Shown here: piece by piece, positions 12,865 through 33,828 of the stretch
Layout of the letters: the number at the start of each line of letters is the position of its first letter
Position numbering within the stretch: the stretch's first letter is position 1
DNA from: Verrucomicrobiota bacterium
GTDB lineage: Bacteria > Verrucomicrobiota > Verrucomicrobiia > Opitutales > UBA953
NCBI GenBank assembly: GCA_014193315.1
Contig: BJHS01000001.1
Span: 186,001 to 250,000 of the forward strand
Direction: 5' to 3'
Length of the DNA stretch: 64,000 bases
The notes under the pieces: model-generated
Database searches by the model: none
Told to the model about the DNA's origin: nothing
What the model saw: the letters and a program-made list of their open reading frames with translations, nothing else
Position numbers and translations under genes: made by a program

Positions 12865-12986
12865 AGATGTGGAAATCGTGATGTCGGATGGAGTAACCAG
12901 CCTCCCTGCGCTTCTTCATGCCGCACTCGGCACTCTGTACTCCGTACTCTCTAATCTGTACTCCTTACTCTGTACTCCGTAATCCC
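12819..12986. repeat. Inverted pair of degenerate 7-bp tandem arrays (TACTCCG type)
   Basis: The left arm 12819-12839 is three 7-mers (GGAGTAC, AGAGTAC, GGAGTGC). The right arm 12924-12986 is nine consecutive 7-mers of the complementary kind (CACTCGG, CACTCTG, TACTCCG, TACTCTC, TAATCTG and so on). They face each other across 84 bp. The left arm encodes the C-terminus of the Mpv17-like gene; the right arm lies just upstream of the acetylesterase gene. The same unit recurs at 16523, 25304 and 46814. Confidence 0.85.
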
Positions 12987-16522: not shown

Positions 16523-16656
16523 CTGTGTACTGAGTCCGGAGTGCGGATTACAGAGGGGCGTGACGCGCCTGGCACCGGGTCTCCTTAGCCTCCAGTTCCG
16601 TACTCATCACTCAGAACTCAGTACTCAGTACTCCATACTCTGAACGCAGTACTCCA
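16523..16656. repeat. Inverted pair of degenerate 7-bp tandem arrays (TACTCAG/TACTCCA type)
   Basis: The left arm 16523-16557 is five loose 7-mers (CTGTGTA, CTGAGTC, CGGAGTG, CGGATTA, CAGAGGG). The right arm 16601-16656 is eight 7-mers (TACTCAT, CACTCAG, AACTCAG, TACTCAG, TACTCCA, TACTCTG, AACGCAG, TACTCCA). It occupies nearly all of the gap between the converging priA and corA genes. The right arm is tidier than the left. Confidence 0.82.
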
Positions 16657-30918: not shown

Positions 30919-30932
30919 TTAGGCATCTGGAC

Positions 30933-31604
30933 ATGCCCCTACCCCCTCTGCCGGCGAATCTCCGTGCCCGCCGTGATTTTCTCCGTCAGGTGGCCTTGGG
31001 CGCCGCGCTGTTCGCGGTGCCTGGCGCCTTCGCCGAGGCGCTGACGCGCACGCCGAAACAGACCGAGGGTCCGTTCTATCCCGACCAGCTGCCGCTCGAT
31101 ACCGACAACGACCTGATCATCCTGAACAACGGCGTCACGCCGGCGGTCGGTGAGATTACCTGGCTGTCTGGCCGGATCCTCGACGAACATGGCGATCCGG
31201 TGCGCAACGCGCTGGTCGAGATCTGGCAGGCCGATAACAATGGCGCCTATATTCACACCAAGACTGGCAACGCTGCTAAGCGGGATGGCAACTTCCAGGG
31301 CTTCGGCCGATTTCTCACCGGGTCCAACGGCGAGTATGTCTTCCGGACGATCAAGCCGGTGGCCTATAAGCCGCGCGCGCCGCACATCCATCTCGCCGTC
31401 CGGATCAAGGGCAAGAAAGAGCTCATCACCCAGTGCTATATCAAAGGACAGGAGCTCAACGCGAACGACATGGTTTTCAAAGGCATCAAGGATGCCAAGC
31501 AACGCGAGAGCGTCACGCTGGCGTTCGATCCGCTCAAGGGCTCCAAGGCCGGCGAACTGTCCGCCCGCTGGGACGTCGTGCTCGGCTTCACGCCCGAAGG
31601 GTGA
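30933..31604 (+). CDS. Tat-exported intradiol ring-cleavage dioxygenase-like protein
   Basis: Related to protocatechuate 3,4-dioxygenase beta-type subunits, which open catechol rings with non-haem Fe(III). From ATG 30933 (MPLPPLPANLRARRDFLRQV), the 223 residues start with a twin-arginine signal (ARRDFLRQVALGAALFAV). The TEGPFYPDQLPLDTDNDL, GRILDEHGDPVRNALVEIWQA and APHIHLAVRIKGKKEL blocks are family hallmarks. The four Fe ligands expected (two Tyr, two His) are plausible as Y in NGAYIHT, Y in PVAYKPRAPHIH, and the two His of PHIH. In Verrucomicrobia many such exported homologues have unknown substrates. The next gene is an exported isomerase-like protein. Confidence 0.86.
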   Translation: MPLPPLPANLRARRDFLRQVALGAALFAVPGAFAEALTRTPKQTEGPFYPDQLPLDTDNDLIILNNGVTPAVGEITWLSGRILDEHGDPVRNALVEIWQADNNGAYIHTKTGNAAKRDGNFQGFGRFLTGSNGEYVFRTIKPVAYKPRAPHIHLAVRIKGKKELITQCYIKGQELNANDMVFKGIKDAKQRESVTLAFDPLKGSKAGELSARWDVVLGFTPEG

Positions 31605-31612
31605 GGCTGAGG

Positions 31613-31638
31613 TAGGGACAGCACCAGGTGCTGTCCTA
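31613..31638. repeat. Compact hairpin, TAGGGRCAGCAC family, copy 1
   Basis: TAGGGACAGCACC, loop A, GGTGCTGTCCTA form a 12-bp stem with a single bulged G. It starts 8 bp after the dioxygenase stop. The same stem with the same bulge is at 43911; a weaker copy is at 19034. Confidence 0.8.
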
Positions 31639-31639
31639 G

Positions 31640-31814
31640 GTGCAAAAGTGCAAATCGGCCTGCGGCCTGTGCAAAGGTGCAAAAGTGAGAGGCCGTCGTT
31701 TCGGGTGGCGGGTGGCGGCCCCAGGTGGCGGCATTCCGCCCTCTGTCCTCTGTCGTCGATTCAGCCATCCATGTTACCCCTGTCTCCACTTTTTCCCTTT
31801 TGCCCTTTCGCACA
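31640..31814. repeat. 8-bp GTGCAAAA array (44-bp unit, copy 1) plus GGTGGCG units and partial facing arm
   Basis: 31640-31683 is a 44-bp block: GTGCAAAA, GTGCAAAT, a CGGCCTGCGGCCT hairpin core, GTGCAAAG, then GTGCAAA; a further unit follows at 31677-31684. The identical 44 bp recurs at 32817-32860, on the other side of the isomerase-like gene. 31703-31740 has GGTGGCG units. 31786-31814 (CCACTTTTTCCC to TTTCGCAC) is a weak facing complement of the GTGCAAAA arm. Confidence 0.8.
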
Positions 31815-31832
31815 TATGTACACTGTGTCCCC

Positions 31833-32798
31833 ATGTCCTCCGCTACCCCGCGTCGTGATTTCCTGAAACAGTCCGCCTGGCTTTCGCTCGCCGCGTTCGG
31901 TCTGTCCGCCCGCGCCGCGGAGTCCGCGCCAGCTGGCAAGGTCTCGCGTCTGCGCACCTCGCTCAACGCCTACTCTTTCTACGTCGAGCTGAACCTCGGA
32001 CTCAAGGAGCCGAACAACCCGAAGGGCATGAACCTGCACCAGCTGCTGAACTTCGCGGCCGAGGCGGGCTTCGACGCCATCGACCTCACCGGCTATTTCT
32101 TCGCCAGTTATCCCAAGGCGCCGACCGACGCGGAGATCTTCGCGATCAAGCACGAGGCCTTCCGGCTCGGGCTTGAGATCAGCGGCAGCGGCGTGAAGAA
32201 CGAGGTCACCACGGCCGACAAGGCCCTGCGCGCCGAAGGTAAGCAGCGCATCAAGGACTGGGTCGACGTCTGCGTGAAGCTGGGCGCTCCTGTGCTGCGC
32301 GTCTTCGCCGACACCAATATCCCGCCGCAGAAGTGGCAGGCCGTCTCCGGCGGTGCAGCGCGTGACGTCGTCGAAGGCTGGATCGCGGATGATTTCCGCG
32401 AGTGCGCCGAGTATGCCGCCGCCCGCGGCATCTTCATCGGTGTGCAGAACCACGGCGATTTCCTGACGACCGGCGCCGAGCACGTCAGCCTGCTCAAGCG
32501 CGTGAACCATCCGAACTGCCGCGCCATCGTGGACACCGGCAAGTACCTGACCGAGGATCCGTACGTCGACATCGCCCTGGCCGCGCCGTACGCGGTGAAC
32601 TGGCAGGTCAAGGAGACACCGTTCGGCAAGCCGAACAAGCCGCTGACGGACATGCGCAAGATCGTGAAGATCGCCCGCGAGGCCGGTTACAACGGCTACC
32701 TGCCGATCGAATCGCTGCCCATGGGTCGCAAGAATTACGACACCCCCGGCGAACTGAAGCGCATGCTCAAGGAACTGAAGGCCGCGATCGCGGAGTGA
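31833..32798 (+). CDS. Tat-exported TIM-barrel sugar isomerase/epimerase-like protein
   Basis: From ATG 31833 (MSSATPRRDFLKQSAWLSLA), 321 residues with a twin-arginine signal (PRRDFLKQSAWLSLAAFGLSARA). The AP-endonuclease-2/xylose-isomerase-like barrel is seen in NFAAEAGFDAIDLTGYFF, KLGAPVLRVFADTN, GIFIGVQNHGDFLTT, RAIVDTGKYL, NWQVKE and YNGYLPIESLP. The acidic and His residues at strand ends (N-H-D in QNHGDF, D in VDTGKY, E in PIESLP) would bind a divalent metal. The substrate is unknown; such exported barrels are abundant in Verrucomicrobia and Planctomycetes. It is bracketed by identical 44-bp direct repeats, which is unusual for a single gene. Confidence 0.85.
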   Translation: MSSATPRRDFLKQSAWLSLAAFGLSARAAESAPAGKVSRLRTSLNAYSFYVELNLGLKEPNNPKGMNLHQLLNFAAEAGFDAIDLTGYFFASYPKAPTDAEIFAIKHEAFRLGLEISGSGVKNEVTTADKALRAEGKQRIKDWVDVCVKLGAPVLRVFADTNIPPQKWQAVSGGAARDVVEGWIADDFRECAEYAAARGIFIGVQNHGDFLTTGAEHVSLLKRVNHPNCRAIVDTGKYLTEDPYVDIALAAPYAVNWQVKETPFGKPNKPLTDMRKIVKIAREAGYNGYLPIESLPMGRKNYDTPGELKRMLKELKAAIAE

Positions 32799-32816
32799 GC
32801 GGGCGATTTCCGGTAA

Positions 32817-32860
32817 GTGCAAAAGTGCAAATCGGCCTGCGGCCTGTGCAAAGGTGCAAA
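32817..32860. repeat. 44-bp GTGCAAAA block, copy 2
   Basis: Identical over 44 bp to 31640-31683, in the same orientation, 18 bp after the isomerase-like stop. With copy 1 it brackets the gene as a direct repeat. The inner GGCC-TGC-GGCC hairpin is conserved. Confidence 0.88.
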
Positions 32861-32875
32861 TGTGGAGCCAATCCA

Positions 32876-32931
32876 GGTAGGGCCGACCATCCTTGGTCGG
32901 CCGCGGCCAAGCAGGGATGCTTGGCCCTACC
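32876..32931. repeat. Cloverleaf-like element with two 9-bp hairpins
   Basis: The outer stem is GGTAG/CTACC. Inside are two hairpins, each with a perfect 9-bp stem and a 4-nt loop: GGCCGACCA-TCCT-TGGTCGGCC (32881-32902) and GGCCAAGCA-GGGA-TGCTTGGCC (32905-32926), separated by GC. The shape recalls a REP/BIME-type unit. The GGTAGGG/CCCTACC ends are also in the hairpin at 25416. Confidence 0.78.
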
Positions 32932-32943
32932 CGATGCAGGCAT

Positions 32944-32970
32944 AAAAAAGCCCCCGTTGACGGGGGCTTG
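32944..32970 (-). terminator. Rho-independent terminator of the minus-strand isomerase-like gene
   Basis: AAGCCCCCG-TTGA-CGGGGGCTT with AAAAAA on the plus-strand left side, which is a T-run on the minus strand. It is 25 bp after the stop codon of the minus-strand gene at 32995. Confidence 0.88.
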
Positions 32971-32994
32971 GTGGCGACCGCCTCGGCGCGCCGC

Positions 32995-33828
32995 TTACTT
33001 CGCGTGGGCCTTGACGAACTCGATGTTGGCCTTCACCTGCGGGACGCTGTCGTTCCAGTCGGCTTCGTGCTCGATCGAGATGTGGCCGTCGAACTTCTGC
33101 TTCTTCAATTCCTCGAGGCAGGCGGCGACGTCGACCACGCCCTTGCCGGCGACGACGACGGGCGAGTTACCGAACTTTTCCTTGTCCTTCAGGTGCACGC
33201 TGATGATGCGGCCGCTGAGGATGCGGAGGCACTCGACGGACTTGAGGTTCGAGGTGGCCCAGTGGCCGATGTCGGCGCAGGCGCCGACGCGCTTGTCGCG
33301 GCTCTCGACGACGCCGAGGATGTAGAGGGGGTTCCAGACCTTGTACTTCGGCTTATCCATCGAGCCGCCGTGTTCGTGGAAGGCGACCTTGATGTCGGTC
33401 TCAATGGCGGCCTTTTCCCAGGCGGCGATCTGCTCGGTGGACTCGGTGCAGACGGCGTAGAGGCCCATCTTCTTGGCGAAGGCCATGATCTTGTTCACTT
33501 CCTCGGGGTTGCCGGCGCCGACGACACCGTAGTTCACCGCCTTGACGCCCTGGCGCTTCAGCTCGGCCTGCAGTTCGGCCATGGCCTCCGGGGACATGGT
33601 GTGGCTAACCTTGTCCTTGGAGCCAGGCTTGAGGACTTGGCCCGGGTAGAACTCGATCATGTTGCCGCCGGCTTCCTTGGTCTTGGCGATCGCCTCGAAC
33701 GCCGAAAAGCGGTTGAAGGTGTAGGCCTGGCAGCCGACGAACCAGCCGTTCTGGCGCAGTTCTTCGGGCAGGGGGTCGGCCTTGAGGGTCGCGACGAGCG
33801 CGAGGGCGAGGAGGGGGAGGAGGCGCAT
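32995..33828 (-). CDS. Sec-exported TIM-barrel isomerase-like protein
   Basis: 277 residues with a signal peptide (MRLLPLLALALVATLKADP). The xylose-isomerase-like barrel shows GGNMIEFYPGQVL, GVKAVNYGVVGAGNPEEV, KVAFHEHGGSMDKP, GACADIGHWATSN, ISVHLKDKEKFG and GHISIEHEADWND. Candidate metal ligands are the E/H pair of FHEHGG, D-x-x-H of CADIGHW, H of SVHLKD and E of IEHE. These are better conserved than in the plus-strand homologue at 31833, and the two are not close copies. Substrate unknown, probably a sugar or inositol derivative. It has its own terminator. Confidence 0.85.
   Translation of the reverse strand: MRLLPLLALALVATLKADPLPEELRQNGWFVGCQAYTFNRFSAFEAIAKTKEAGGNMIEFYPGQVLKPGSKDKVSHTMSPEAMAELQAELKRQGVKAVNYGVVGAGNPEEVNKIMAFAKKMGLYAVCTESTEQIAAWEKAAIETDIKVAFHEHGGSMDKPKYKVWNPLYILGVVESRDKRVGACADIGHWATSNLKSVECLRILSGRIISVHLKDKEKFGNSPVVVAGKGVVDVAACLEELKKQKFDGHISIEHEADWNDSVPQVKANIEFVKAHAK

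Follow-up and report, generated by a model that had tools for sequence, protein, structure and literature searches.

The window, by which we mean the whole 64,000-nt stretch of DNA analysed here, carries two identical 44-bp repeats in direct orientation, one on each side of a single isomerase-like gene. We refer to the hairpin-containing repeat element as EL, and to its two positions as slot A (after the dioxygenase gene) and slot B (after the isomerase gene). The features of the locus are as follows.

30930–31604, + strand: left neighbour, an intradiol dioxygenase-like gene (PF00775)
31611–31639, + strand: GTAG-tagged REP hairpin GGTAGGGACAGCACCAGGTGCTGTCCTAG, immediately 5′ of EL copy 1
31640–31683, + strand: EL copy 1, which fills slot A and lies 35 nt past the stop codon of the dioxygenase gene; layout (GTGCAAAN)2, GGCC/TGC/GGCC hairpin, (GTGCAAAN)2
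31787–31813, − strand: degenerate octamer arm in reverse orientation, GTGCGAAAGGGCAAAAGGG, ahead of the isomerase start
31833–32798, + strand: bracketed gene, a xylose-isomerase-like TIM barrel (PF01261) related to sugar isomerases/epimerases
32817–32860, + strand: EL copy 2, with the same sequence as copy 1; it fills slot B and lies 18 nt past the stop codon of the isomerase gene
32862–32875, + strand: linker GTGGAGCCAATCCA, to the right of EL copy 2
32876–32931: inverted pair of GTAG-type REP hairpins, GGTAGGGCCGACC...GGCCCTACC
32944–32969: A/T-tract hairpin aaaaaagcccccgttgacgggggctt, between the convergent genes
32995–33828, − strand: right neighbour, a second, convergent PF01261 TIM-barrel gene

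The bracketed isomerase-like protein has a Tat-like N-terminus (MSSATPRRDFLK), and a glucose-6-phosphate dehydrogenase gene lies beyond the convergent TIM-barrel gene. The dioxygenase gene is conserved both in related loci that contain the isomerase gene (filled) and in those that lack it (empty). The A/T-tract hairpin, which is a candidate for an ordinary intrinsic terminator, recurs in the filled and empty loci that could be read that far. The degenerate arm at 31787–31813 is best read as the remnant of an inward-facing partner of EL copy 1, and intact TTTGCAC arrays occupy the same place in three related genomes (G016, G034, and G027). Two further intergenic stretches of the window (12913–12985 and 16600–16654) carry arrays of a GTACTCY-type heptamer.

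The two copies of the 44-mer (GTGCAAAAGTGCAAATCGGCCTGCGGCCTGTGCAAAGGTGCAAA; 31640–31683 and 32817–32860, both on the + strand) show 0 mismatches and have different, unrelated flanks, as the sequence-only reading had described. The pair is the longest exact direct repeat of the window and the sole one of at least 22 nt, which bears out the remark that its identity exceeds that of the other arrays here; the chance expectation for such an exact pair is about 10^-15. With mismatches allowed, the match extends to 51 nt at 96%. The gap of 1133 bp between the copies holds one gene of 966 nt, the PF01261 match that had been noted as a single isomerase-like gene. A genome-wide search for the 44-mer, which had been proposed as a check against a high-copy repeat, gave a divided answer: the exact sequence occurs only twice in the whole window genome (2.36 Mb, 44 contigs, 97% complete; G000 below), but up to 24 copies are found in relatives. 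One further EL relative with another hairpin core lies at C2:201154, bringing this genome to three ELs in total.

Comparison with related genomes identified the 44-mers as copies of a structured interspersed repeat family restricted to one genus. The earlier reading had left out that the same 44-mer is the consensus of this family, which occurs within 3 mismatches in 36 of the 55 species of the genus. The number of EL copies per genome is 0–25 (25 in G012). A search that fixed only the octamers recovered EL from 23 of the 32 congeners sampled and gave no hit in 290 genomes representing 94 further genera of the order. The named records that carry the family are freshwater Opitutae metagenome assemblies (among them UBA953, UBA957, UBA7397, and BS6 and BS8 from Lake Biwa, the latter two described in PMC6329791), and its hosts are largely uncultured lake bacteria. 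Rfam covariance models gave no match over either EL and only a chance-level rsmX score at 32886–32971 (E 0.89), and a literature text search for the exact repeat sequence returned no match. The EL family of this genus of freshwater Opitutae bacteria is previously undescribed.

Among 208 distinct copies, the GTGCAAAN octamers are nearly invariant except at N, and the 3-nt loop is variable. In a search made without fixing the core, 143 of 149 copies had a core hairpin of 4–6 bp, with stems such as GGCC/GGCC, GGAGC/GCTCC, GCGGC/GCCGC, GGGGCC/GGCCCC, GCGAC/GTCGC, GGCGC/GCGCC, GCGC/GCGC, and GGGGC/GCCCC, and a few stems containing G-T pairs (e.g., GGAGT/GCTCC). Because at least eight unrelated stem sequences all still pair, it is the pairing, not the sequence, that is conserved. 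When the 3′ halves were dealt anew among the distinct hairpin cores, 50 of the 56 observed combinations paired, against a mean of 40 and a maximum of 48 in 300 dealings, although this is a weak control because few stem classes dominate. Each octamer contains the self-complementary TGCA, so the whole EL can fold on itself (predicted −14.9 kcal/mol), and EL regions fold beyond their shuffles with a mean z of −5.3, compared with −3.1 for other intergenic regions. A hairpin that is variable in sequence and constant in pairing is a testable sign of function as RNA or as extruded DNA.

The placement of EL was scored against gene calls from a simple codon-usage gene caller made for this analysis. For 54 of the 70 copies with an upstream gene on the same strand, EL starts 1–47 bp past the stop codon; beside a divergent gene, it lies 61–129 bp upstream of the start in 33 of 44 copies. 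A GTAG REP of the type next to copy 1 stands directly 5′ of EL in 77 of 208 copies. EL is often the outermost element, with GTAG-type REP hairpins occupying the inside of the intergenic regions. For ten short array types, all 142 co-occurring pairs of the same type converge, facing inward, and eight of the ten types are significantly paired with their own type; an earlier test, in which the best local alignment of intergenic halves was set against that of mismatched halves, gave a weak and mixed signal. Intergenic DNA of the genus (e.g., L034, L036, L038, and L046) was seen to be made up of short tandem arrays arranged as concentric inverted arms, the words of these arrays including GGTGGC, GGTGAC, GGTCTC, GGGGTA, ACCGGARACCGG, and GTGCAAAN. 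In their make-up these intergenic regions are palindromic, and our literature search found no description of such concentric inverted arrays.

The locus was recognisable in about 30 species, and one genome per species was compared. The isomerase gene is present at 15 and absent at 14 orthologous loci of the genus, and in the species without it, no close homolog turned up in the rest of the assembly. One bin (G042) holds two versions of the locus, one with and one without the gene, and two sister species differ, the gene being present in G016 and absent in G054. On a tree built from ligase and glucose-6-phosphate dehydrogenase, the isomerase state changed at least six times, and at least four of these changes are forced by well-supported branches. 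In G005 (L278), a frame resembling FAD-dependent oxidoreductases, read by eye, directly follows the dioxygenase gene at the place of the isomerase.

In one of the empty loci (G030:C13), the order is the dioxygenase gene, a REP, one EL, and then GTGGAGCCAGTCCA and the REP pair, so that an allele with exactly one repeat is joined to the outer flanks of both window copies. Its right flank matches that of window copy 2 at 68 of 71 nt, and this flank was found at only two places in 55 genomes, the window and G030; likewise, the only other site of the linker followed by the start of the REP is the empty junction of G030. This junction corresponds to the exact product predicted for recombination between slot A and slot B. 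The earlier suggestion that recombination between the repeats could delete the gene precisely is therefore supported at the level of species, by this hybrid junction together with the presence and absence of the gene. The clearest EL junction comes from one species. A single EL without isomerase is also found in G019 and G054, and the remaining empty loci have no EL but other joints, some of them inside longer repeated REP composites. Because most empty loci lack a junction of the G030 type, several of the changes either bypassed EL or have decayed. About a dozen genes are bracketed by direct ELs, and only the isomerase gene was found to vary among them, the others having been sampled in few genomes.

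Taken together, we consider it probable (roughly 0.6) that EL is a structured intergenic repeat, restricted to this genus, that is both a boundary element and a recombination substrate between slot A and slot B. EL would lie on the outer side of an element that marks the boundary between transcription units and would act either as extruded DNA or, at the ends of transcripts, as folded RNA, with selection maintaining it; placement, conservation, and structure are what suggest this transcript-end or boundary function. Direct ELs flanking a gene would offer a site for homologous recombination or for RecA-independent recombination between short repeats. A crossover between the two slots would then separate the EL-isomerase-EL arrangement of the window from the single EL without a gene in G030. 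EL is not essential, as the window genome has only three copies and some congeners have none. More tentatively, and with much less confidence, we suggest that EL is a new structured noncoding class under selection, which marks the ends of transcription units and also supplies joints for the precise loss or gain of single genes. In any case, the locus ties a repeat family to gene presence and absence base by base in a comparison of some 30 species.

The sequence-only reading had taken the perfect match between the copies as a sign either of the recent origin of one copy or of conversion within the pair. However, slot A is occupied by EL in G000, G001, G012, G019, G027, G030, G034, G042, and G054, and slot B in G000, G001, G016, G029, G034, G040, and G042, so both copies have orthologs in other species and are old. 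Between species, EL differs by 2.1% in slot A and 1.4% in slot B. For comparison, the adjoining gene differs by 32% at its third codon positions, and the 18-nt slot B spacer by 18%. The 44-mer is moreover the commonest version of the family (35 of 189 copies), and two random family copies are identical with a probability of 0.05. The identity of the window copies thus needs no special cause, because both are the commonest version. Three other genomes have EL in both slots, and in each of them the two copies differ. Since the flanks are unrelated, there is also no duplicated segment. A segmental duplication or gene conversion in the recent past is therefore a very improbable origin of the matching 44-mers, and we rejected it on account of the orthologous copies in other species and the match to the family consensus. 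The possibility that EL and the arrays are functionless, selfish or mutational repeats, spread by transposition with the GTAG REPs and a RAYT, by slippage, or by palindrome-templated copying, deserves more weight, even if we think it unlikely. The 77 ELs adjoined by GTAG REPs would fit it, as would the variation in EL copy number (from 0 to 24 or more) and the RAYT genes found in 36 of the 55 congeners. In five of these (G001, G016, G024, G029, and G034), a RAYT lies at this very locus, between the isomerase and the convergent TIM-barrel gene, and together with its flanking GTAG REPs it forms a complete REP-RAYT element (L256:7691-8158, L285:200-661, and the same place in G001, G029, and G034). 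The RAYT was identified by NCBIfam (E 1e-19, below its curated cut-off) and by PDB TnpA-REP (E 7e-4), and Pfam did not recognise the gene; no RAYT was detected in the EL-carrying genomes G012 and G030. Against a selfish repeat, EL itself has no GTAG tag, G012 has 25 ELs without a detected RAYT, decayed copies are rare, orthologous copies have stayed near-identical over a long time, and the range of distances past stop codons is narrow.

The direction of change at the locus bears on a further alternative, that of gain, in which the single-EL state is ancestral, EL is a landing site for incoming genes, and the isomerase-EL unit was inserted by homologous recombination at EL. The patchy presence and absence of the isomerase gene would agree with this, and so would the history of the convergent TIM-barrel gene near slot B. 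The DNA of that gene is 89–93% identical to the versions in G014, G009, G033, G032, and G023 and only 76–83% identical to those of the species to which every other gene here is closest, and for this gene only, the window genome groups with G014/G033/G032/G023. It thus appears to have been exchanged between subclades, which would make horizontal exchange near slot B real. In contrast, the third-position identity of the isomerase gene between species (64–78%) matches that of the adjoining dioxygenase gene in the same species (60–76%), as expected under joint descent. Because of this match, loss of the isomerase gene is more likely than gain, and we regard gain as doubtful. A system of cassettes resembling those of integrons, with EL as an attC-like recombination site, is highly unlikely. 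The direct orientation of EL and the occurrence of one gene per interval in some EL-rich polysaccharide clusters would suit such a system, but the R′/R″ boxes of integrons (RYYYAAC/GTTRRRY) are absent from the EL consensus, which is therefore not an attC site. In surface-polysaccharide clusters (L034, L036, L038, and L046), EL was seen behind many genes, one by one, including those for nucleotide-sugar epimerases, a cytidylyltransferase, a SIS-domain isomerase, and a UDP-sugar dehydrogenase. Despite their many direct ELs, the EL-rich clusters of G034, G024, G042, and G035 have a gene order that is conserved between species and not shuffled, which speaks against cassettes and indicates that EL alone does not destabilise its neighbours.

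DNA uptake sequences, such as the DUS of Neisseria and the USS of Haemophilus, occur in inverted pairs at gene ends. EL shares with them short conserved words and inverted pairs between genes, but its copy number is far too low, and a hairpin core lies between its words. A composite transposon or IS-flanked unit also does not fit, with one non-transposase gene between the repeats and unrelated flanks, and repeats of only 44 bp cannot hold a transposase. GTAG REPs and BIMEs with their RAYTs are another known system to compare, reported to be highly enriched in Opitutus terrae (PMC3733652). Like them, EL is short, interspersed, extragenic, and often just downstream of genes, and as an imperfect palindrome it is able to form a hairpin. 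It differs in that its hairpin has only 4–6 bp, and in its four nearly invariant GTGCAAAN octamers, set in direct orientation, and the GTAG tetranucleotide, present in the separate REPs beside EL, is absent from the EL consensus (189 copies). EL is not a GTAG REP, an attC site, an IS-flanked unit, or a known Rfam RNA, and it resembles REP-type extragenic elements in place and fold. Marine Beggiatoaceae contain abundant intergenic direct repeats of the heptamer TAACTGA, for which a regulatory role has been proposed (PMC4679880); these are likewise repeats of 7–8 nt between genes in a narrow lineage, whereas EL has a covarying hairpin with precisely two octamers on each side and follows stop codons. 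In E. coli, perfect 46-bp direct repeats 886 bp apart delete the intervening DNA without RecA (PMC5426353), so that passive homology suffices. Repeat length (44 versus 46) and spacing (1133 versus 886 bp) are similar at the present locus, although here the event is deduced from the comparison of species, whereas in E. coli it was observed in cells. The outcome is also alike, with the intervening DNA lost and one repeat left, and in one documented case EL thus appears to behave like a substrate for short-repeat deletion.
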